Shown: in pieces, positions 36,555 to 50,027 of the stretch
Layout: each line of letters opens with the position of its first letter
Numbering within the stretch: position 1 is the stretch's first letter
NCBI RefSeq assembly: GCF_033472595.1
Contig: NZ_CP137642.1
Span: 682,001 to 746,000 of the forward strand
From: Methanoculleus receptaculi
Lineage (GTDB): Archaea > Halobacteriota > Methanomicrobia > Methanomicrobiales > Methanoculleaceae
Length of the DNA stretch: 64,000 nucleotides
Direction: 5' to 3'
Program-made: the position numbers and the translations under genes
Notes under the pieces: generated by a model
The model's database searches: none
What the model was told of the DNA's origin: nothing
What the model saw: the letters and a program-made list of their open reading frames with translations, nothing else

Positions 36555-36627
36555 CGATCCATACCCGCCCCGACCACAACATTCTAAACATATCTCTCCC
36601 GAGTAACCTCCAGGAAGTGTTTACTGT

Positions 36628-37189
36628 ATGGACTACCTGGAAGAGTTTCCAGTTCTCTTCATCGATGACGAAGGGCAAGTCAGGGACGCTGGTTGCGGAA
36701 CTATCCCGGTTCAAAGCGCTTTACGACGGCAACAGCCCGATCGAGGAGGTCTTTCCAGACCTGGTGCGCCAGTATCCCGCCAGGTATGCGGGGCTCGGGC
36801 TTGCGGACCTCTGCCGGGAGATGCACGGGTTCCTCCGGGCGGAGTCGATCCCGGTGGTTGTCCGGGACGTCTATTCGAGGCTTCCGGAACCGGTGATGAC
36901 GCCGGCGGAGGCTTACCGCCGCCTTGTGCGTGGAGAGGTGGTGCAGGTGCCTGCGGGCGAGATCGAGGGGAAGACCGTCGCAGTGATGGTCGTCCCCTAC
37001 CCGCTCGGCATCCCGGTCATAATGCCCGGGGAGCGGTGCGGCCAGGAGACACGGGCGGTTGTGGATTACCTCGAGATCCTCCAGGAGTTCGACAACCTCT
37101 TTCCCGGGTTCGAGAACGAGGTGCATGGCGTGGACGTCGTTACGAGGGAGGGGCGCCGGGTCTATTACGCCTACTGTGTTTCGGAGTGA
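36628..37189 (+). pseudogene. Orn/Lys/Arg decarboxylase remnant, internal deletion
   Basis: A short N-terminal piece (MDYLEEFPVLFIDDE, ATG 36628 after AGGAAG) is followed in another frame by a C-terminal domain of about 165 residues (LVAELSRFKALYDGN.. to ..VYYAYCVSE). That domain resembles the C-terminal domain of group III Orn/Lys/Arg decarboxylases (GEVVQVPAGEIEGKTVAVMVVPYPLGIPVIMPGE). The large PLP domain is absent. The gene is disabled by a large internal deletion plus frame loss. Confidence 0.7.
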
Positions 37190-37195
37190 CGGCGG

Positions 37196-37471
37196 TCAAT
37201 CCCGCACGCTGCCGCGGGCGAGCGAGGCGAGGATTCCCGGGGTGCAGAGGGCGGCGAAAGCGAGGAAGATCACGGTCGCGAAGAGGTACGATGAGGCCAC
37301 GAGGCTGAGCGAGACGGCGTCGAGGTCGAACTCTGCTGCTATCGACGGGAGCGCGATGTTCACCGCCGAGCTCATGAACGGGGTGAGGAACGCGGCGAGG
37401 GTGGCGATGATGAGGACAGTCCGGCGCTGGACGGCAACGGGGGCGGGCATGGGGGTGCTTTGACGCGGCAC
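37196..37471 (-). pseudogene. MFS transporter remnant, ends joined
   Basis: Residues 15-68 look like the first spans of an EmrB/QacA-type drug transporter (LAAFLTPFMSSAVNIALPSIAAEF..). The next 20 resemble the last membrane helix and basic tail of the same family (FAALCTPGILASLARGSVRD). About 400 internal residues are missing. It converges on the decarboxylase remnant with a 6-base gap and is the third adjacent gene of this kind. Confidence 0.65.
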
Positions 37472-37799: not shown

Positions 37800-38145
37800 G
37801 CCGGATCGATCGTCTCACTTTCACAAACAGCCAACGGACATGTAGATGATTGTGAGAGAAATGCTATATAAGCCCGGGTCTATCCTCTTATGCGGAAGCT
37901 CAAAACAGCGTTCACAAAACCGCGGAGGCTCACCCCATCCAACCAAGACCGGGTGAACCCCCCACTGCCCGAAGGCGAAAGAGTTGTTCGCATTCCATGT
38001 ATTTGGGTGTACCTCTTTTTGCCTCCGGGGAGGTTATCGGAGGAAAAGCAAATGAACGGAACCATTGGAATGCGGGCACTCTCCGCGCTCTTCGCCGTGC
38101 TGCTGGTGAGCATGGGTGTTGTGCCGGCAATGGCGTGCGAGCCGG
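37800..38145 (+). repeat. Promoter-leader-signal-peptide cassette, copy A
   Basis: Contains, in order: a conserved upstream block (ACAGCCAACGGACATGTA), a BRE/TATA core (GAGAGAAAT..CTATATAA, TATA 37863-37871), a leader of about 155 bases and codons for a signal peptide starting at 38052. The leader block GCGTTC.CAAAACCGCGGAGG and ACCGGGTGAACCCCC recurs almost unchanged in copy D (48.5-48.8 kb). Shorter or diverged copies are at 41.3, 44.0 and 50.8 kb. Confidence 0.75.
38011..38054 (+). promoter_or_regulatory. Possible Shine-Dalgarno-masking hairpin, copy A
   Basis: TTTTTGCCTCC about 30 bases before the start can pair with GGAGGAAAAG, the ribosome-binding site of the ATG at 38052: five GC-rich pairs, one mismatch, then four A-T/G-T pairs. 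The shorter alternative CCTC/GAGG pairing next to it would free the site. The same arrangement is present before 48746. Confidence 0.5.
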
Positions 38146-38814
38146 GGGACGCCTTGCGGCGATGCCAGAGAAGACCTGCAGAAAACCGATCTGTCAGGCT
38201 TGGAGAAGTACGAAGCTGTCGCTTCCGCTCTGAACTTGGATGATGTGAAAAAGCTCTCGGACATCTCGCGCTCTGAAGACTTTAGTATGATCGTCGACAA
38301 CGCGAAAGCGTTCTCCTTCGAGAAGGAACTCGAAGACGGATCAATCAAGCATGCAACGGCTGTGGTACTGCCCATCGAATCTGTTATTGAAAAAGACGGT
38401 TTGGTCCAGACATCGAACATCGTTGCAGTCTGGGACGGTGACAATGCTCGGGTACTCAAGTACACATGCATTTTCCAGGAAAAATCCCTGTACACACTCG
38501 ATTTCAGCATAATCGATGTCAATGGAGATGTGGTTAAGGAAACCATTATCGATGAGGGCTCATTCATCAAGGAAACGTCGGAGCATCTCTTTGCAACAGA
38601 GGAGGACCCGGATTACTGGCAAAGAGTTGTTTACTGTATCACCTTGAATTGTGCTTGTGCGCTTGCTGGAATCCCTTGTCCTGGAATATCGGTCTGTGAA
38701 ATTTGTATTGTGTTGTTACAACCATGTGTTGTTTTTATGACTCCATATACCTGCGCCCCTGCCGTAGCTTGCTTAGGAGTGGAAATAGCCGCATGTATGT
38801 ACGACAGCCTGTAA
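38052..38814 (+). CDS. Halocin C8-like cysteine-rich secreted precursor (frameshifted)
   Basis: The first frame encodes a Sec signal peptide (MNGTIGMRALSALFAVLLVS..VPAMA-C). A +1 shift near 38140-38160 leads to the mature part (REDLQKTDLSGLEKYEAV..), an acidic domain of about 140 residues. The last 60 residues are hydrophobic with exactly ten Cys, spaced 4-1-6-5-2-6-8-5-7. The segment ACLGVEIAAC resembles SCLGFVEIVC of halocin C8, an archaeal peptide antibiotic with ten Cys cut from a precursor whose N-part gives immunity. I infer an archaeocin precursor. There is no twin-Arg signal, unlike halocin C8. Whether the shift is real or a sequence error is open. Confidence 0.6.
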
Positions 38815-38848
38815 ATCAGATAGATACCTCTTTTTTGTGGAGTGTGCT

Positions 38849-39520
38849 ATGACAACACAGCAACGCTACCAATTTGTAGTGGTTATCGTATTACTCGGAC
38901 TCGTTTGTTCCGGTTGTTTGGAAACAGGCGCTGATACGGATACGCTTCTGCAAAATACCATAGAAAAGCAGGCGAATGCCGAGAGCCTGGCATACATCGA
39001 AGAGCTTACTTTATATCTAGGGAATGAAACGAAGACAGTTGAATATGATGTACTTTTAAAGAAACCGGACAAATTTCGAAGAATCGAGAAGAGCGGCTCA
39101 TTTATACGCTCGGAGATTACTTCCAATGGAGATATAGTCTGGATCTATGATCCTGAGAAAAATACAGTGTTCATTAGAAATCTGACATCATCAGAGAAAC
39201 TACCAGAACCTGCGATCTATGCATTGTTGAATGATAATATCTTTGAAAAATACATGGTAACAGGTCAAGAAATGGAGTCGAATAACCCAACTCCGGCTTA
39301 TAAGATAGAACTGGCTTCTCACGAGTCGGATAACGAAGATACGAGAGAGTATCTGCTGTGGATCGATCCCGATGGTCTCATCCCGTTGAAGCTGGAGAGT
39401 TGGGACAAGGGCAATCCGGTGCTAACCCTGGAATATCGAGATTATTCGATAAATTGCACAACAAATGATAGTGATTTCACCTTTACGATTCCTGATGATG
39501 CATCGGTGATGTACATATGA
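38849..39520 (+). CDS. Lipoprotein, LolA-like fold
   Basis: 223 residues from the ATG at 38849, with GGAG about 8 bases upstream. The signal peptide ends in a lipobox (LVCSGC, Cys near residue 25). The mature part is beta-rich (VEYDVLLKKPDKFRRIEKSG, DIVWIYDPEKNTVFIRN, LLWIDPDGLIPLKLESWDKG), the pattern of archaeal LolA/LppX-like lipoproteins that hold lipophilic molecules. It follows the halocin-like gene and overlaps the next start (ATGA). A role in binding or neutralising the hydrophobic peptide is possible, but this is inference. Confidence 0.7.
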   Translation: MTTQQRYQFVVVIVLLGLVCSGCLETGADTDTLLQNTIEKQANAESLAYIEELTLYLGNETKTVEYDVLLKKPDKFRRIEKSGSFIRSEITSNGDIVWIYDPEKNTVFIRNLTSSEKLPEPAIYALLNDNIFEKYMVTGQEMESNNPTPAYKIELASHESDNEDTREYLLWIDPDGLIPLKLESWDKGNPVLTLEYRDYSINCTTNDSDFTFTIPDDASVMYI

Positions 39521-40137
39521 AGCTCGACCCTATCATCAAGGAGGCACTCTGGCGCTCGGTTGTAGTCTTTGTCGTGTCGATTATCATCGTCGCTATCATC
39601 ATCGCGACAGCTCCCCTCCCGATACCTGCGTTCTTGTTGTTTCCCCTAGCATTGACGATCGCTGCAGTATATTTCTGTCTTATGGTGTGGTATGGACGAA
39701 AGGCAGCCGGACGATCAAAACCCCATGCATATCCTCCGTCATCCTCTCCGGTTAGCGGATACAGGGAAGGAGAAAAGATGCAGAGGCGAGCCGTTGTCGA
39801 GAAGGTGACCGACGCCGTCCTTGCCGTCGTGATCTTCCTGATCTATCTCTATGCGTCCCGTGCATCCTCCATCAACCAGGTCTTCTGGCTCCCTGTCCTT
39901 GTCATCATCGGCCTGCTCCTGACGCGCATCGTCTTCATCGATGGCGGCGAGCGCCGCATCACCCTTGTACGATCGGTTGTCTTCTATCTCATAGTCGCCG
40001 CGATCGTTGTTCTGCGCTACCTGGCACTGGGATATCCCGTTGTCCCCCTCCTCCAGGCAATCGCGCTTGTCGGCATCGTTGCTTTTCCCATCCTCTATAT
40101 CTGGGAACGACGACGCACACCGAAGGGAACGGATTGA
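39517..40137 (+). CDS. Multi-pass membrane protein, unknown
   Basis: 206 residues with about six hydrophobic segments in two groups (about residues 15-55 and 95-190), separated by a Pro/Ser-rich polar linker (KPHAYPPSSSPVSGYREGEK). A second possible start is MQRRAVVEK at residue 88. It is translationally coupled to the lipoprotein gene and precedes the thioredoxin-CcdA gene. I do not recognise a family. Its place after a bacteriocin-like gene makes immunity or export a reasonable guess. Confidence 0.65.
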   Translation: MKLDPIIKEALWRSVVVFVVSIIIVAIIIATAPLPIPAFLLFPLALTIAAVYFCLMVWYGRKAAGRSKPHAYPPSSSPVSGYREGEKMQRRAVVEKVTDAVLAVVIFLIYLYASRASSINQVFWLPVLVIIGLLLTRIVFIDGGERRITLVRSVVFYLIVAAIVVLRYLALGYPVVPLLQAIALVGIVAFPILYIWERRRTPKGTD

Positions 40138-40204
40138 TGGCTGAGGGATGGCCTGTGGAGTGATCGATGTGCCTTGGCACATCTCTGCAAATGGCGGAGG
40201 GCTC

Positions 40205-41209
40205 ATGATCGTAAAAGCGGTGCAGGTACTTGCCGTTCTGCTCATCGCGTGCACTCTGTGCATTCCTGCAGCCGCAGCCTCAACGATCTCCCTCGAATAT
40301 TACCACATGGACCGGTGTCCGGACTGCAAACTGACTGATCCGCTGATCGCGGACCTGGAAGGCTCCTACGACGGCGCCCCCGCGATCGAATGGATCGATG
40401 TCGAAACCGTGGACGGATGGGAGCGATGGAACGCATACGAATTTCTCGAAGTCCCGGCCGTAGTCATAAACGGCGCCATTAAAATTCCCAAAGAGGAGAT
40501 CACCGAAAAGAACCTCAGGGTGGCGATCGAGCAATCCCTTGCCGGTGCTGAGCCGCCGGAGAACTCCCCGCCGATTAACTGGGACATCCCGTTTGCATTC
40601 TCCCTGGGCCTCTTCTCCGGTTTCTCGCCCTGCCTGATGGCAATCCTCGGATTCATCCTGGTGTACGTCACCGGGTCGGGCACGGGGTTGAGAAGCAGTC
40701 TCCTGAACTCTGTAATATTCGGCCTGGGGCTGGTCGCCGCGTATATCATCCTGGGGTGCTGCTTCCTGCTGGCGGGGATGTCCCTCGGCGGTTTTGGCCC
40801 TTACCTCGCCATAGCAGCAGGGATAATCACGATACTCGCCGGGGTGAACCTACTCGGGTTGATACGGCTCCCGGTCTCCACTGACAACTATGTTAAGTCA
40901 TCCATACAGAAGCATGCGACCACCTTTGTCGGGTTGTTCATACTGGGCATGATATTTTCGATCGTCAAGGCCCCGTGCGCCGCACCGATGATCCTCGTCC
41001 TGCTGAGCAGAATCCTGATCGACGGCACCGTGCAGGATTTATCGCTCCTGCTGGTCTTCGGAGCCGGGGTGCTCACGCCGTTTCTCGGCGTCGGAGTACT
41101 CGGGGGATATGCCTCGTCGAGCAGGATACGGGAATACAGGGATGTAATTCGAGCCGGCAGCGGGATTCTTTTGATAGGATTCGGGGTCTGGATGCTCTTC
41201 TGGGGATAA
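40205..41209 (+). CDS. Thioredoxin-like domain fused to CcdA-type membrane protein
   Basis: 334 residues from the ATG at 40205, with GGAGG just upstream. A signal peptide (about 1-25) is followed by a thioredoxin-like domain with a CPDC active site (YYHMDRCPDCKLTDPL) and cis-Pro region EVPAVV. Six membrane spans follow (about 125-334), with the CcdA cysteines in SGFSPCLMAILGF and KAPCAAPMIL. CcdA/DsbD proteins carry electrons across the membrane for disulfide exchange. Next to a ten-Cys secreted peptide it may fold that product. A truncated duplicate is at 48.1 kb. Confidence 0.85.
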   Translation: MIVKAVQVLAVLLIACTLCIPAAAASTISLEYYHMDRCPDCKLTDPLIADLEGSYDGAPAIEWIDVETVDGWERWNAYEFLEVPAVVINGAIKIPKEEITEKNLRVAIEQSLAGAEPPENSPPINWDIPFAFSLGLFSGFSPCLMAILGFILVYVTGSGTGLRSSLLNSVIFGLGLVAAYIILGCCFLLAGMSLGGFGPYLAIAAGIITILAGVNLLGLIRLPVSTDNYVKSSIQKHATTFVGLFILGMIFSIVKAPCAAPMILVLLSRILIDGTVQDLSLLLVFGAGVLTPFLGVGVLGGYASSSRIREYRDVIRAGSGILLIGFGVWMLFWG

Positions 41210-41309: not shown

Positions 41310-41385
41310 TCAGAGCAGGTTGATCGCCTCACTTTTACGAACAGCCAGCGGACGTGTAAAGGATTGTGAGAGAAATTATATAACT
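41310..41385 (+). promoter_or_regulatory. Island promoter repeat, copy B
   Basis: Block CAGAGCAGGTTGATCGCCTC, then ACAGCCAGCGGACGTGTAAAGG and GAGAGAAAT with TATA ATTATATAA at 41375-41383. The leader to the ATG at 41454 is only about 45 bases. It matches copies A and D upstream of the TATA box but lacks their long leader and signal-peptide part. Confidence 0.7.
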
Positions 41386-41453: not shown

Positions 41454-42050
41454 ATGAAATTACGTATTTACTCATACATCGCAACGATAATCCTCGTCGT
41501 CCTTGCCAGCGCCGGGTGCCTAGAACCCACCGAAACCGGCCCGGTCGTAAATACCACCCTGGAACCCACACCGGAGCCCTGCGAGACATGCACCGTCCCC
41601 GAGGGCTTCTGCGGCCCACCCGGGGTCTGCCCGGGGGAGCCGGTGAACGGCGTCTACGCCTTCACGGACAAGGATGTCTACCGGATCGGGGAGGTGGTGG
41701 AGTTCGGCATCGTCAACTGCGGCGATGAGCCGGTGGAATTCGGCAGCCCACGCCCATGGTGGATTGACAGATGGGTCATGAACGAATCAGGATGCATGCC
41801 GGGCAATTGCACCGACGGCACGTGGGAGCCCATAGCCGATGGGGGATATGCTCCGACCGTGATGTGCTTCCTCGACCCCAGAGAGAACTGGACAGTGCAG
41901 TGGAATACTACAAACTGGTGGGATACTGCAGAGGCGAGCGGAAGTCCTGTATGTCCATATGATATTCGGATTCACGACGACCCCCTTACTCCTGGGACGT
42001 ACCGGGTGCGATATGGGCCCAACTTTACCAAGGAGTTCGAGTTTGTGTGA
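41454..42050 (+). CDS. Cys-rich lipoprotein 1 of a tandem pair
   Basis: 198 residues. Lipobox ASAGC (Cys near residue 22), then a Thr/Pro-rich spacer (TTLEPTPEPCETC) and a Cys-rich segment. An Ig-like beta domain follows (VYAFTDKDVYRIGEVVEFGIVNCGDEPVEF). Several N-x-S/T sequons (NES, NCT, NWT, NTT, NFT) suit AglB glycosylation. The gene sits under promoter repeat B. Function unknown. Residues about 56-120 are identical at DNA level to the next gene. Confidence 0.75.
   Translation: MKLRIYSYIATIILVVLASAGCLEPTETGPVVNTTLEPTPEPCETCTVPEGFCGPPGVCPGEPVNGVYAFTDKDVYRIGEVVEFGIVNCGDEPVEFGSPRPWWIDRWVMNESGCMPGNCTDGTWEPIADGGYAPTVMCFLDPRENWTVQWNTTNWWDTAEASGSPVCPYDIRIHDDPLTPGTYRVRYGPNFTKEFEFV
41619..41814 (+). 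repeat. 196-base perfect repeat, first copy
   Basis: This segment reappears without a mismatch at 42272-42467 in the neighbouring lipoprotein gene, while the flanks of both genes have diverged. Confidence 0.85.
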
Positions 42051-42109
42051 CGCGGAATAACCCCGGCCACCGGAGGCACAAGGATGTGCGCACAAATGGA
42101 GAAACCGCA

Positions 42110-42673
42110 ATGAAACCACAAATTCACCCATGCATCGCGATGATAACTCTCATTGCCGTCTTCGCGACCGCCGGGTGCCTGGAACCAGCCAGCACCGCCG
42201 TAAACGCCACCCCAGAACCGACACCGGAACCCTGCGAAACGTGCACCGTCCCCGAAGACTTTTGCGGCCCGCCCGGGGTCTGCCCGGGGGAGCCGGTGAA
42301 CGGCGTCTACGCCTTCACGGACAAGGATGTCTACCGGATCGGGGAGGTGGTGGAGTTCGGCATCGTCAACTGCGGCGATGAGCCGGTGGAATTCGGCAGC
42401 CCACGCCCATGGTGGATTGACAGATGGGTCATGAACGAATCAGGATGCATGCCGGGCAATTGCACCGGCGGCACGTGGGAGCTCGTCAGCAATGCGGGAT
42501 GTGCTCCGACCGTGGTGTGCTTCCTCGACCCCGGAGAGAACTGGACGGTGCGTTGGGATACAGGGGCGAACCGAAGTGAGACCATATACATGATGGTGGC
42601 GGACAACCTCACTCCCGGGACACACTGCATCTGGTACGAAGGCGGCTATGCCAAGGAGTTCGAGTTCGTGTGA
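42110..42673 (+). CDS. Cys-rich lipoprotein 2 of a tandem pair
   Basis: 187 residues from the ATG at 42110 (MKPQIHPCIAMITLIAVFATAGC), GGAGA upstream, lipobox ATAGC. It has the same architecture as the preceding gene: Pro-rich spacer, Cys motif, Ig-like domain and sequons. The ends of the two proteins differ clearly but the centre is identical, pointing to recent duplication or gene conversion. It lies 59 bases downstream and is probably co-transcribed. Confidence 0.75.
   Translation: MKPQIHPCIAMITLIAVFATAGCLEPASTAVNATPEPTPEPCETCTVPEDFCGPPGVCPGEPVNGVYAFTDKDVYRIGEVVEFGIVNCGDEPVEFGSPRPWWIDRWVMNESGCMPGNCTGGTWELVSNAGCAPTVVCFLDPGENWTVRWDTGANRSETIYMMVADNLTPGTHCIWYEGGYAKEFEFV
42272..42467 (+). repeat. 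196-base perfect repeat, second copy
   Basis: Identical to 41619-41814; offset 653 bases. Confidence 0.85.
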
Positions 42674-43995: not shown

Positions 43996-44300
43996 ACCTG
44001 CCGACGTGTAAAGAAATTGGACAGAATTTCTAAATAACTCTGTGTTCAAGCCATTGTGTGGATGCTTCAGAGCGGCGTCCGCAAAAGATCTGGGGCTACC
44101 CATCCCTGGTTGACGACCGGATGACGCGCCCCGCGTGCCCGGAGGCAAAGGGAACGTACGCGTTCTGCGTACTTAAGGTTGTGCCTCTTTTGCCTCCGGG
44201 GAGAGAAACTGAAGGAAAAGTAAATGAACAGAAACATTGGAATGCGGGCGCTCTCCGTGCTCCTGGCAATGCTGCAGGTGAGTGTCGCGATGGTGCCGGC
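43996..44300 (+). repeat. Promoter-leader-signal-peptide cassette, copy C (diverged)
   Basis: CGACGTGTAAAG and a TATA-like TTCTAAATAA (44028-44037) are followed by a leader of about 165 bases. CTCTTTTGCCTCCGGGG recurs, then AAGGAAAAG and a signal peptide (MNRNIGMRALSVLLAML) close to copies A and D. The middle of the leader has diverged and the Shine-Dalgarno pairing is weaker. Confidence 0.65.
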
Positions 44301-45057
44301 AGTGGCTGCACAGAGTGAAAAGCGCTTTGAAGAGGAATTGCTGCAAAACATGGGTATAAAAGTAAACAGCATTGATACAGAATTGTGTGACTACAAAACT
44401 GTTGGAGACACGGTTTTCTTTAATGGGAATGTCAAATTCGATGCAGAATCTGGAGTAAGCGGGAAATTTGAGCGAATTTACGCAGACCAGCAAGTTAGTG
44501 GCTATTATTCCAAAAATGGCTCTTACCATATCGAATCCGTTGGTACAAACTACCGTTCAGCAATAGATGCGCAAGTGATTTCAGAAAGCTCCGATGCTAT
44601 TACACTCAAAATTGAGCAAGTGGTGGTTAAGAACGGAGTTGTAAAAGTGTCAAGCGATATAGTGACCCTCCCGAAAACCGAGCGTCCTGATATCAATGAT
44701 TTTGGTGGTGTAAGCAGTATTGGCCTAACAAGCGATAAAACAAAGATTGACTTACCGAGTATGGCCCCGCCAGGATCGACTTTAGTATTCAATGACGTAC
44801 AATATTTCTATCTTGTGTACGGCACTGCTGCTCTTGCAGTGGTTGCTGCTTATTTCGGTGTGTTACCCGCAGTAATTCTCGGTTTGGCAGCTGTAGCTCT
44901 TGAAGCTGCAGCTGATTACGGCGATTTCGATACAGAGGACTGTTACCTTGATGTCTGGCTTGTTCCCGAACCGCATCCCTCTGCCCCTATCCTCATAGAG
45001 GTTGACTATATATATTTAAACACCTTTTTTTCTTTATGTGATGCTTATGATTCGTAA
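44224..45057 (+). CDS. Secreted protein with hydrophobic C-terminal segment
   Basis: 277 residues, in frame throughout. The signal peptide (about 1-27, VPAVAAQ) belongs to the shared cassette family. Residues about 28-190 are beta-rich. Residues 200-240 form a long Ala/Val/Gly-rich hydrophobic stretch (YGTAALAVVAAYFGVLPAVILGLAAVALEAA), then an acidic tail with YLDVWLVPEP. A related C-terminal stretch is in the pseudogene at 45374. It resembles a leader-domain-plus-hydrophobic-peptide precursor, but no known family is recognised. Confidence 0.6.
   Translation: MNRNIGMRALSVLLAMLQVSVAMVPAVAAQSEKRFEEELLQNMGIKVNSIDTELCDYKTVGDTVFFNGNVKFDAESGVSGKFERIYADQQVSGYYSKNGSYHIESVGTNYRSAIDAQVISESSDAITLKIEQVVVKNGVVKVSSDIVTLPKTERPDINDFGGVSSIGLTSDKTKIDLPSMAPPGSTLVFNDVQYFYLVYGTAALAVVAAYFGVLPAVILGLAAVALEAAADYGDFDTEDCYLDVWLVPEPHPSAPILIEVDYIYLNTFFSLCDAYDS
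45006..45020 (+). promoter_or_regulatory. Strong TATA box inside the end of the 44224 gene
   Basis: TATATATTTAAA lies about 25-30 bases upstream of the next start codon, giving the small membrane protein its own promoter and nearly leaderless mRNA. Confidence 0.55.
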
Positions 45058-45238
45058 TTATCTGCCGTTATTATGGAAATTGGTATTCACTCTTGCAGTA
45101 GTTCTTCTCATCGCAAACATTTATGAGACTATACAAAGCGGTCATTATGACTCTCTTAGGCAGTGGGTGTTTTTTGCCCTTTTTTTCACGAGCCTCATCA
45201 TTCGATTCATCAGTGAAAAAACCGCAAAAAATACTTGA
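45047..45238 (+). CDS. Small two-TM membrane protein, candidate immunity
   Basis: 63 residues from the ATG at 45047 (MIRNYLPLLWKLVF); the ATG at 45041 would add two. Two hydrophobic helices (about residues 7-27 and 38-56) with a short polar loop and a basic tail (EKTAKNT). It overlaps the end of the preceding secreted-protein gene and has its own TATA box. Small two-span proteins after bacteriocin genes are often immunity factors; that is inference here. Confidence 0.55.
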   Translation: MIRNYLPLLWKLVFTLAVVLLIANIYETIQSGHYDSLRQWVFFALFFTSLIIRFISEKTAKNT

Positions 45239-45373
45239 TTTTCCCCGAGGTCATCCCGATACGCCCCTGGTTAAAATGAAGCGGTGCATGCTTGGGACAA
45301 AACCGAGCCGGAAGCCCATAACGAACCCCCTGTGATAGAAATGACTGCAGAAATACAGAAAAAAGGAAAAATC

Positions 45374-45694
45374 ATGGGTATCGTATCTTCACATACACTT
45401 TGGAACTTACGATATGGATAATTTGATCGCACCAGGGGTTTTTTAGCAATCGAAGGTCTAGGAGCGGCACTGGCCGTAATATTGGGACTAGCTACTCTCC
45501 CCGCACTAGCCTTGGCCACGGCGATTGCAGGAGCGTTAATCTTCGGCGCCTGGTACTACAAGAATCTAGATGGAAGTCTGGACATGTATTTCAGTAATCT
45601 GACTCTTGCACTCATTCCTGTGTACCTGGCGATGCCGGGACCACAACCGATTGTCGTGAGACTGGGATCGCACGATGTGCCGGTGCTTATATAA
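45374..45694 (+). pseudogene. Remnant of a second hydrophobic secreted protein
   Basis: A start with AAAGGA upstream (ATG 45374) gives only 15 residues. Downstream, YDMDNLIAPGVF and then, after a shift in the T-run near 45443, LAIEGLGAALAVILGLATLPALALATAIAGALIFGAWYYKNLDGS can be read to 45694. The hydrophobic stretch followed by LDMYFSN resembles the C-terminal part of the 44224 protein. It is a truncated, shifted paralogue. Confidence 0.5.
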
Positions 45695-45727
45695 CCAATA
45701 TGAGCCCATTTTTTGGGGTTGAATTCC

Positions 45728-45931
45728 ATGAACCGAAAAAAAATAATTATTGGATTCACGATCTTAGGTTTTATTATATTGCAGTTTGTTTTCTATAGGC
45801 TCATAGGTATCTGGGAAGAAGGCGCGAAACACGGTTTTTCCCAGGTCACGTTCATACTTGGAGTGGTCCTGGGCGTAGCATACGCCTACTTAGCATATAT
45901 TGTTGACACACGCCTTCTCGACGATCCGTAG
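45728..45931 (+). CDS. Small two-TM membrane protein, second copy in position
   Basis: 67 residues (MNRKKIIIGFTILGFIILQFVFY..), two hydrophobic helices with a charged loop (IWEEGAKHG). It follows the hydrophobic-protein remnant exactly as the 45047 gene follows 44224, so the pairing is repeated even though the sequences are not obviously alike. Confidence 0.5.
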   Translation: MNRKKIIIGFTILGFIILQFVFYRLIGIWEEGAKHGFSQVTFILGVVLGVAYAYLAYIVDTRLLDDP

Positions 45932-45966
45932 AACTATTTTATTACACCGAATGGAAAACGGCTCAA

Positions 45967-46494
45967 ATGAAGACAGATTCAAACGAGAGACCGAGCAGGG
46001 CAAGGGGAGCAGTACTCGGGCTACTATTGGCAATCACATGGATCGTTCTTATTCTATTGCTCGTTGAACGCATCTTCTTCCCTCATCAGGGCGGCGGCAT
46101 TCAAAATCCCGTCATCAACTGGCTTTATATCGGTCCCATGGTGTTCCTCGTCTGCGCCGGGAACTACCTGATGTACCAGCGGAAAGTAGGAGGTACCGAA
46201 GCCGCTCGTGGCGCAGCTGAACTTAAAATTCTCTTCTTTGGCGTTTTGCTCTGGTTCCCCGTCACACTGGCGCTGTTTCTCATGCAGTGGGGCGGTCACG
46301 GGCAACTGGGTTCGATGGTAGGGCTCCTGACCATGCTCATTATGCTCGCTATTTACACGTTGTGGGAGAGACGGCAGTACGGAGACATTCTCCTGAAAGC
46401 GCAGAGCAGGACAATTCACGTTAAGGTAGCGGAAACGCGAGATCACTATCTGTCCCCGGTTTTTCTCTCTCACACCGGGGTAGTGCTCCATTAA
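45967..46494 (+). CDS. Four-TM membrane protein, unknown
   Basis: 175 residues with four hydrophobic segments (about 14-36, 48-64, 82-102, 108-128) and a polar tail. No family recognised. It is expressed in the same direction just after the small membrane protein. The last residues (SPVFLSHTGVVLH) read into sequence that looks like an insertion-sequence boundary, so the true C-terminus may be lost. Confidence 0.55.
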   Translation: MKTDSNERPSRARGAVLGLLLAITWIVLILLLVERIFFPHQGGGIQNPVINWLYIGPMVFLVCAGNYLMYQRKVGGTEAARGAAELKILFFGVLLWFPVTLALFLMQWGGHGQLGSMVGLLTMLIMLAIYTLWERRQYGDILLKAQSRTIHVKVAETRDHYLSPVFLSHTGVVLH

Positions 46495-46570
46495 ATCACT
46501 GGTATCACATTTCTGGTGTCTCCACATATTATTCACATACTTTTATTTACTATCAGGAATAGTATTGCCC

Positions 46571-46732
46571 ATGTCCCGTGCCCGCAGTTCCGGCACGATG
46601 ACCTGCCAGAATTCTGCATGCCGGTTCTTCCAGCTTGAGGAAGGGAAAGATCTCATTAAGAATGGGAGGAATTGTGCTGGGAATCAGCAGTATTTCTGTA
46701 AACACTGCCAGACGTTGTCAACGGCGGCGTAA
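46571..46732 (+). pseudogene. Truncated IS transposase, N-terminal zinc-ribbon part
   Basis: 53 residues (MSRARSSGTMTCQNSACRFF..). The pattern CQNSAC..GNQQYFCKHCQT resembles the zinc ribbon of IS1/InsA-like transposases. It stops after ATLS-like residues just before the ISH3-type element, which probably inserted into it or replaced the rest. Confidence 0.5.
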
Positions 46733-46752
46733 CTTTGTGCACTTTCGGCGGT

Positions 46753-48074
46753 CTCAGTACTTCTCTAATTTTCAAGTAGGCGTATCCTGTGCCAAATCTG
46801 GAAACCAGCACAAAAGCGAAAGATCTATATGGGTTGCAGGCATCCCCTCATGCCTTTTGCCCAAAGGAAGAAGACAACCTGCAAGAAGATTAGCACCCTG
46901 AAATCGAAAGAATGTTGTGCTTGTGCGGTCACGGCACTGAATCAGCACCTGACCATTCCAATCCAGGGACGGCTCACCCAAACCGACCTGTTTCAGGCGC
47001 TGATTGGCATGGCCGCGATGAACCAGTCGATTCACTCGATCACCGGGCTTTTAGAGCACGTACCCTGTGAGACGTCCTTCCGATATCACCTGAAGAAACT
47101 CGACATGGACGAGTTGGAGCAGAAGAGCACTGCTATCCTCACCCATTTCGTACACCACGTCCTGAAGCCCGGGAACGCGTATCAGTTCGCGATCGACTAC
47201 ACTAACGACCCCTATTACGGGGAGACTACCGATGAGAACAAACCCTTTATCATCCGGAGCAAGCGCAAATAGTCGACGAACGAGTTCTATTCCTACGTCA
47301 CCCTGTACGTGACCACCACAGATCGGCAGATGACGCTGGCGATGTACCCGGTGCGCCAGGGGATCTCCAAGGTCGAGTATATCGCCCGCTGCCTCGACCG
47401 GATCGCCGAGATCGGCCTTGAGATCGAAGCCCTCTGCCTGGATCGGGAGTTCTACACCAAGAAGGTCTTCGGGTTTCTGACCCGGGTGCAGGTGCCGTTC
47501 ATCGTCTCGGTCAGGAAACACGGTAAACGGATGAAAGAATTACTCGAAGGAACGCAGTCCCGGTATGCCGAATACCGGATGAAAGCCAAACCGCCGCTTC
47601 TCCTGACGATCGCGATCGCAGTCAAGTATGCGAAAGGCAAACGAGGAAAGCACGGTGTCGAGAACCTGGGTTACGTCGTCGGTAGCCTTGCGTGGAACCC
47701 GCTTCGGGTGCACCAGACCTACCGATCCCGGTTCTCGATCGAATCGTCCTACCGGATGCGCAACCAGGTGAAACCCCGGACAAGCACGAAGAATCCGGTG
47801 ATCCGCTATATCTATGCCATTATTTCCTTCCTCCTCAAGAACGTTTGGATCGCTCTTTTGTGGATGCATTTCTCCCCGGTGAAGCGAGGGCCCAGAACCA
47901 TCGACATGCGCGCTTTCCGGTTCGACTACTTCATTGTCATAATCTGGGAAGCGATTCGGGCATCGATGAGGATGGTGAAAGGAATTCCCATCCTACGGAA
48001 TCCGGTTTAGAGAAAAGGGGGTGAGAAGACGTTGAATAAAACGAGAGGGAGGATGAATTTAGCGAAGTACTGAG
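46753..48074 (+). mobile_element. ISH3-like insertion sequence
   Basis: Terminal inverted repeats CTCAGTACTTCTCTAATTT (46753) and AATTTAGCGAAGTACTGAG (ending 48074) enclose one interrupted transposase gene. It separates an IS1-like remnant from a truncated CcdA copy. No clear target duplication was found. Confidence 0.75.
46850..48010 (+). pseudogene. ISH3/IS4-like transposase with in-frame TAG
   Basis: The frame runs from the ATG at 46850 (MPFAQRKKTT) and meets TAG at 47270-47272 after IIRSKRK. It continues in the same frame (STNEFYSYVTLYVTTTDRQM..) to the TAA at 48010. Catalytic features are Asp in FAIDYTNDPYYG, Asp in LCLDREFYTKKV and Glu in RFSIESSYRMRNQ. Apart from the one stop it looks complete, about 386 residues. 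TAG ends several normal genes here, so readthrough is unlikely. Confidence 0.75.
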
Positions 48075-48385
48075 TCCGCTATACGGAAACATTCGGCCAA
48101 TCTGGCCGGGTTGTTCTTTCTGGGTATGCTGTTTCGATCGTCAAGGCTCCGTGCGCCGCACCGATGATCCTTATCCTGCTGAGCAAAATCCTGGTTGACG
48201 GCACGGTACAGGACCTCCCGCTCTTACTGGTCTTTGGAGCCGGAGTGCTCACGCCGTTTCTCGGCGTCGGGGTCATCGGTGGATACGCCTCGTCGAGCAG
48301 GATACGGGAATACAGGGATCTCATTCGAGCGTGAAGCGGGATTCTTTTGATAGGATTCGGGGTCTGGATGCTCTTCTGGGGATAG
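48072..48385 (+). pseudogene. C-terminal fragment of a duplicated CcdA-type gene
   Basis: The sequence matches the last 100 residues of the 40205-41209 gene (SIVKAPCAAPMILILLSKIL.., VFGAGVLTPFLGVGVIGGYASSSRIREYRD.., LLIGFGVWMLFWG). It has a shift near 48128, a TGA near 48332 and its 5' end removed at the ISH3 right border. The downstream intergenic DNA is duplicated too. Confidence 0.8.
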
Positions 48386-48458: not shown

Positions 48459-48840
48459 AAGAAAGACCTTTCTTCTCCGTCCCCTTCCTTCAGAGCAGGT
48501 TGATCGCCTCACGTTTGCGAACAGCCGACGGACGTGTAGAGGGATGTGACAGAAAACATAAATGGCTTGACGCCTATGTCCTTGTGCGGATGCCCAAAAT
48601 GCGTTCGCAAAACCGCGGAGGCTCACCTCATCCGTCCAAGACCGGGTGAACCCCCCACTGCCCGAAGGCAATAAGTAACCTTGCATTCCATGAATTTAAA
48701 ATTACGCTTCTTTTGCCTCCGGGGACGTTATAGGAGGAAAAGCAAATGAACGGAACCATTGGAATGCGGGCACTCTCCGCGCTGCTCGCCGTGCTGTTGG
48801 TGAGCGCGGGTGTTGTGTCAGTGGTGAGTGCAACGAACAA
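48459..48840 (+). repeat. Promoter-leader-signal-peptide cassette, copy D
   Basis: The hairpin AAGAAAG/CTTTCTT (48459-48474), block CAGAGCAGGTTGATCGCCTC, CGGACGTGTAGAGGG and a TATA-like AACATAAAT (48555-48563) are followed by a leader near-identical to copy A and the signal peptide at 48746. The masking pair CTTTTGCCTCC and GGAGGAAAAG is intact (48711-48743). Confidence 0.75.
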
Positions 48841-50027
48841 CCCCTCAGGCAGAACCCCATAATACAACGTTTCGATTGGTTGATAATGTCCAACCTCCCC
48901 TCTTTGACTGGAGCGGTGTCGAGCCAGCGTCGCCAATGACAGGATCCGACCTAACGACGATCATCCTATCCGAAGCATATGTTACAAAACAGGTAGGACT
49001 GCAATCCCCCGGAATCGTTGAATTATCTCTTCCCTTTTCCGCATTCGGAGAATCGGATTGTTCTGTAGAAAAATCTCCAGACTACCTGATACAGGTAGGA
49101 ATTGCTGAAGATGATCCTGTTATGGTTTTAACAATACCCGATACGATGTTTAGGTCATTGAATGACGATCCTAACCGCATCGACCTGAGTTTTCCGCTTG
49201 AATACTTTTCGCATTACACAGATATCAGTACTTACTATCGACAGCACCCGGAGAACACCGCAGACAACTCTCGATTCAAATTATCAGATAGCGATCTGGA
49301 TGCGATTAATTCACTTGAAGTTAATATCGAACGTGATGTGCAGCCATACCTCTCCAGAGTAAGGTTTATGGCCGATTCAGGAAACGAAATTACATACCTT
49401 ACAGGAAAAATTAGGCCTTATTACTATTCAAATTCCGGAGCTAGATACACGATTTTCCAGGAGAGAGAAATAAATTTAAACCGTTTCGATGCATCAGGGG
49501 AACCCCTTGACACAATTGAAATTGTTGTCGAGTACGAAGACGCCCTTCCCGGAGTGGGGAACATCAAGTTATATCCGGTAGTATATGACGAAGGTTCTCT
49601 GATTTATCCAGGTCCCGACCCGTATATCGACGTATCCAGATCATCCCTCCCTCACGAGTATAATTACTATGTGTCCATCGGTAGTGGTTCTACGTTGGGA
49701 AAATATGAGATCTGGCTCCAGGATACGACAACCGAAGAATGGCTGGGGTACTATTATTACGATGACGATAGCGATCCGAGTCAATTCATCAAGCGAAATG
49801 TAGGGTCATCGGAGTTATTCCTTTGGGACAGCTCGACCTTTTCCTTTGATGCACGCACATCGCCGATAATGGATGAATGGTGCAGGCAGGGAAGTACCTG
49901 GAACAGACCAGCAGACGTATTCTCATACTACGACCGACAATACGATTCTTATGTGAGCACGTCGTATTCAACCGGGTCGGGTATAATCTATACACACACC
50001 TACTGTAGTGGAAGTGGTTCATCTTAG
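48746..50027 (+). CDS. Large secreted protein behind the shared signal peptide (frameshifted)
   Basis: The signal peptide frame (MNGTIGMRALSALLAVLLVS..VVSA) stops after SGRTP at 48861. A +1 shift near 48830-48850 gives about 390 further residues (AEPHNTTFRLVDNVQPPLFDWSG..). The mature protein is acidic, Tyr/Ser-rich and likely beta-structured (YVSIGSGSTLGKYEIWLQDTTTEEWLGYYYYDDD), with only a few Cys, two of them in the last 50 residues. No family recognised. The signal peptide matches that of the halocin-like gene almost exactly, but the mature parts are unrelated. Confidence 0.6.

Follow-up and report, generated by a model that had tools for sequence, protein, structure and literature searches.

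The archaeocins listed as described so far in a passage of a 2023 paper (PMC10105419) are only sulfolobicins and halocins, with none from methanogens. In the haloarchaeal halocin C8 system (precursor ProC8, consisting of HalI and HalC8; model TIGR04449), one gene accounts for both production and immunity according to the title of Sun 2005 as listed in PMC11509114, and a statement in the latter source gives Tat as the export route of halocin C8. The window analysed here, a stretch of 64,000 nucleotides from Methanoculleus receptaculi (contig NZ_CP137642.1, positions 682,001 to 746,000), carries four genes in the same direction (38052-41209, + strand, from ORFs and translations). Like halocin C8, they include a secreted precursor type with a distantly related pro-region and a hydrophobic, predicted helical, Cys-rich C-terminal core, but this core is unrelated by sequence and differs in Cys spacing, the signal is Sec-like rather than Tat, and the cassette has extra partner genes, none of which was found within 1.5 kb of 30 haloarchaeal halocin-C8 loci. 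We consider the locus, at a probability of roughly 0.6, a candidate for a methanogen branch of the halocin-C8-like archaeocin precursors that has a new class of core and a methanogen-specific accessory cassette on the envelope side. Judged by sequence, the designation “halocin C8 domain protein” fails for the precursor; the best available reading is that it would work like the halocin C8 type, with a likeness in pro-region and neighbourhood and not in the core. This link is drawn from partner genes shared with C8-type loci, a pro-region match and the same predicted order of domains.

The precursor gene begins with a signal peptide and first residues (MNGTIGMRALSALFAVLLVSMGVVPAMACEP; 38052-38143), followed by a five-G run (38144-38148), a distantly HalI-like pro-region with a predicted helix-loop-helix and six-stranded beta domain (38149-38607) and the hydrophobic Cys-rich core, predicted as three helices (38608-38814, stop codon included). 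The second gene (38849-39520) encodes a LolA-like lipoprotein with the lipobox Cys in CSGC, which, like LolA/RseB-like lipoprotein carriers, exceeds the Pfam cut-offs (PF09865/PF03548) for LolA (25.5 vs 23.6 bits) and DUF2092. Unlike such carriers, it stays below the NCBIfam equivalog cut-off (TIGR00547; 43.7 vs 112 bits), is archaeal and is membrane-anchored with no outer membrane present. The multi-pass membrane protein (39517-40137), which has a homologue in a halocin-C8-type locus, starts within the lipoprotein stop codon; this ATGA overlap (39517-39520) is as the preliminary description had it, and so is the fourth gene (40205-41209), where alignment confirmed the fusion of a CPDC thioredoxin to CcdA with the CcdA cysteines. 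Gene 4 shares with DsbD/CcdA thiol transporters a CcdA/DsbD transmembrane domain above the Pfam cut-offs (PF13386 and PF02683), an invariant, conserved Cys pair and an exported CxxC thioredoxin domain, and is unlike them in being a short fusion inside a peptide-precursor cassette. As CcdA in known systems passes electrons or reducing power outward, gene 4 is by analogy likelier a reductase or isomerase than an oxidase for oxidative folding.

Upstream of the precursor lies an element with a TATA-like box (37838-37869, + strand), near-repeated at 41352-41383. The only two perfect copies of its GATTGTGAGAGAAAT..TATA sequence in the genome (37848-37868 and 41362-41382) belong to the same island and precede the precursor and two tandem Cys-rich lipoproteins (41454-42673), respectively; homologues of these lipoproteins adjoin thioredoxin-CcdA genes in other Methanoculleus (L056, L102). 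At the island edge (36617-37471) are apparent remnants of two genes, a C-terminus and an N-terminus that we take to be those of a decarboxylase and a transporter.

The window copy of the precursor is silent or mis-sequenced. Its signal peptide (MNGTIGMRALSALFAVLLVSMGVVPAMA) begins at 38052 with GGAGG ahead of the start and lies in the frame 38052-38243, while the remainder of the precursor occupies the next frame (38116-38814); DNA alignment with five relatives locates one surplus G in the GGGGG run at 38144-38148, i.e. a frameshift or a sequencing error. The relatives have a single uninterrupted frame of at least 253 codons with the secretion signal intact, so the continuous secreted precursor claimed for the window exists in them and is broken in the window itself, where the system would be silent unless the surplus G is a sequencing error. 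Past the shift the frame has no stop, with a dN/dS of 0.18 against the closest relative (89% identical), which argues for a recent shift or a sequencing error. The same signal peptide also heads another exported-protein gene (48746-50027), which is likewise broken by a surplus base just past the signal peptide (C4 for C3) in comparison with two relatives; error, decay or switching could explain two such shifts in one genome. In Methanoculleus, many exported proteins that are otherwise unrelated start with a near-identical signal peptide (MNGxIGMRALSALLAVLLVSVGVVP) and share its 5' leader; in the window these are the ones at 38052, 44224 and 48746. The region 44224-48382 is probably a second, decayed cassette: it holds an exported protein and small membrane proteins, along with an insertion sequence (46829-48010) and a thioredoxin-CcdA 3' remnant (48122-48382).

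The window core has ten Cys within its last 60 residues (chance about 3e-9 at an assumed 1.2% Cys) and is hydrophobic (GRAVY +1.17 over the last 68 residues). These ten Cys are invariant across six distinct window-type sequences, so that the Cys pattern does recur in homologues; the count of exactly ten Cys in 60 residues, as first reported, holds for the window and not for the family, in which four of the six have 12. The two extra residues are the first (WxC) and the last, and both are absent from the window and its 89%-identical relative, which suggests, weakly because the joint absence may go back to one event, that they pair with each other in a disulfide.

A halocin domain expected in the last 60 residues was not found with TIGR04449: none of four window-type cores gave a match at E values up to 10, nor was there one in the window's own or close genomes, while the same model matched in haloarchaea and in other methanogens. 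The window core thus lies outside the curated cut-off, and its Cys spacing (4,1,6,5,2,6,8,5,7, with two more Cys in most relatives) is not the ten-Cys spacing of TIGR04449. Profile-to-profile comparison with halocin C8 cores gave no relation (Prob 2.9), and Pfam and NCBIfam scans of the precursor returned chance-level matches only. As both TIGR04449 and the profile comparison came back empty, the likeness of ACLGVEIAAC to SCLGFVEIVC of halocin C8, pointed out previously, is not supported as homology.

The pro-regions were compared across the window type, the C8 type and the third precursor type described below. With signal peptides removed, hhalign related both the window type (Prob 90, E 2e-6) and the C8 type (Prob 94, E 1e-7) to the third core type, and the direct comparison between window and C8 types was weak. 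An HMM trained on the pro-regions of methanogen C8 and third types placed the window-type precursors at the top outside the training families among 5,105 ORFs (window E 0.0018). In an HMM of haloarchaeal pro-regions alone, methanogen C8 types took the top ranks, and window types came lower with E values of 0.65 or worse. In a combined HMM trained without window types, these followed the training families immediately in a search of 4,945 ORFs (window E 4e-4; only E 0.59 for the precursor of G018), and none of 1000 shuffles per sequence reached the real score. Because we built these HMMs iteratively, their E values are supportive and not independent proof. A HalI-like pro-region thus precedes the core, as in halocin-C8-like precursors in the wider sense, with a weak direct haloarchaeal comparison.

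Predicted structures point to a common domain order. AlphaFold models the window type (pTM 0.70) with helices at 21-31 and 37-40, a helix-loop-helix part of low confidence, then six strands and three core helices. For a haloarchaeal precursor that we take to carry the halocin C8 core, also by the motif quoted in the preliminary description, the model has helices at 14-25 and 28-39, six strands (mostly pLDDT 75-96) and low-confidence helices after them. Both models would thus run from a helix-loop-helix through six strands to a helical Cys-rich end, and the conserved DLSGLEKYEAVASALNLDDVKKL of the window type occupies the corresponding position. A Foldseek search of the PDB with both models gave no match at E 0.001 or below.

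The closest relatives are from Methanoculleus. Full-length window-type precursors occur in six of the 232 genomes of the class, with two copies in Methanoculleus sp. FWC-SCC3 (G006), and none was found in viral contigs and plasmids; many class-wide matches of our query A1 covered the signal peptide only and were left out of this count. Wherever a window-type locus is not truncated by a contig end (six loci: G000, G001, G006, G018, G022, G104), the order of precursor, LolA-like lipoprotein, membrane protein and thioredoxin-CcdA is kept, which bears out the expectation of a conserved neighbourhood, and some of their thioredoxin genes carry a frameshift or stop. The close thioredoxin-CcdA family occupies about 15 places in Methanoculleus on inspection of ORFs: six in window-type cassettes, two by halocin-C8-type genes or remnants, five by other exported proteins, one as a remnant in the window and one without such a neighbour. 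Gene 4 would therefore be an accessory of exported-protein cassettes that is not specific to one peptide. Within the class, 30 genomes have a member of the membrane-protein family and six have the precursor; the occurrence of the membrane protein without the precursor would fit retained immunity and also an independent role. Other exported proteins of no recognised family stand by a membrane protein and thioredoxin-CcdA (L100:37-996, L104:3496-4593, L102) and are possible further cargo of the cassette.

Some halocin-C8-type precursors in methanogens have the same kind of neighbours. The methanogen G334 (carrying mcrA) has two, at 23.0 bits (hmmscan) and 26.4 bits (genome search) around the TIGR04449 cut-off of 24. 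Downstream of the first (L061 copy 1) come a small membrane protein, a LolA-like lipoprotein and a thioredoxin-CcdA that shares 45% identity with window gene 4; the second has behind it a small membrane protein, then a lipoprotein and then a membrane protein with 31% identity to that of the window. For the lipoproteins, the identity between the window and a halocin-C8-type locus is 27%. In G089 (L057) a C8-type precursor comes with a membrane protein of the window type (62% identical) and a thioredoxin remnant, and in G020 a C8-type remnant is preceded by thioredoxin-CcdA and the remnant of a window-type membrane protein. These C8-type cassettes thus resemble the window in related pro-region, membrane protein and LolA-like lipoprotein and, in L061 copy 1, in thioredoxin-CcdA, and differ in a core near the TIGR04449 cut-off and in an additional small membrane protein that immediately follows the precursor. 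A third precursor of G334 has yet another Cys-rich end; this type (L061:12203-12817, L060:3685-4308) has a related pro-region and, downstream, a lipoprotein gene from a different family. A fusion of lipoprotein and thioredoxin next to a C8-type precursor (L062) was considered as genes 2 and 4 joined and set aside as evidence because its lipoprotein part is not significantly related to the LolA-like one.

The archaeocin reading is favoured by the cassette being kept in six of six loci, the invariant Cys, the shared partner genes, the pro-region relation and the dN/dS of 0.18. Against it stand a core that fails both TIGR04449 and the profile comparison, the weak direct pro-region comparison with the C8 type and the haloarchaeal-only HMM at E 0.65 or worse, the occurrence of gene 4 by unrelated exported proteins and of the membrane protein without the precursor, the 30 haloarchaeal loci without partners within 1.5 kb, and a window gene out of frame. 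Some of the same observations would suit an envelope redox or structural module, in which a Cys-rich exported surface, sensing or metal-binding protein has no antimicrobial role and its partners keep thiols ordered: same-family gene 4 accompanies other exported proteins in Methanoculleus, LolA/RseB-like folds serve envelope functions too, and the membrane protein is on its own in many genomes. We regard such a module as unlikely, given the patchy precursor (6/232 genomes), the remnants and mixed cassettes, and partners and a pro-region held in common with halocin-C8-type precursors.

It is very improbable that the precursor belongs to the halocin C8 domain family proper, with a core that has drifted but keeps disulfide pattern and fold; position, size, hydrophobicity and predicted helical core are alike, the window copy has ten Cys and the pro-regions are related, but four cores remained empty in TIGR04449 at E up to 10, the profile comparison gave Prob 2.9, and the Cys spacing differs, with 12 Cys in most relatives. 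The archaeocin reading is made at the level of the family and is compatible with a decayed cassette in this strain, sitting in a remnant-rich island with its working precursor gone. To that we give even odds: the frameshift directly after the signal peptide, the similar one-base shift at 48746-50027 and the insertion sequences and thioredoxin-CcdA remnant close by speak for decay, and the still open frame with a dN/dS of 0.18 speaks against it, as does the chance that both shifts, which lie in short homopolymers, are sequencing errors.

Under the archaeocin reading, intact relatives would export a precursor with signal peptide, distantly HalI-like pro-region and a hydrophobic core of 60-70 residues with 10-12 Cys. 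After export, the pro-region might shield the core until cleavage, the LolA-like lipoprotein might hold the hydrophobic core outside the cell, and the exported thioredoxin, fed by CcdA, might reduce or reshuffle its disulfides. Protection of the producer would fall to the membrane protein, perhaps together with the lipoprotein, so that immunity may reside in either, and the freed peptide would act on rival archaea, probably at the membrane.

The cassette supplies concrete methanogen archaeocin candidates together with partner genes, and Methanoculleus sp. FWC-SCC3, which has an intact copy, is a candidate strain; the joint absence of first and last Cys points to a testable disulfide. The comparison suggests that methanogens might have extended the one-gene haloarchaeal design with genes for an extracellular carrier and thiol exchange. 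Somewhat short of even odds, we also envisage a modular methanogen archaeocin system: Cys-rich cores of several unrelated kinds, the 10-12-Cys core of the window type being a new class among them, would share a single HalI-like pro-region and a single set of envelope-side partners, made up of lipoprotein, membrane protein and thioredoxin-CcdA. If so, strict anaerobes would possess a peptide weapon with its own thiol-disulfide relay.
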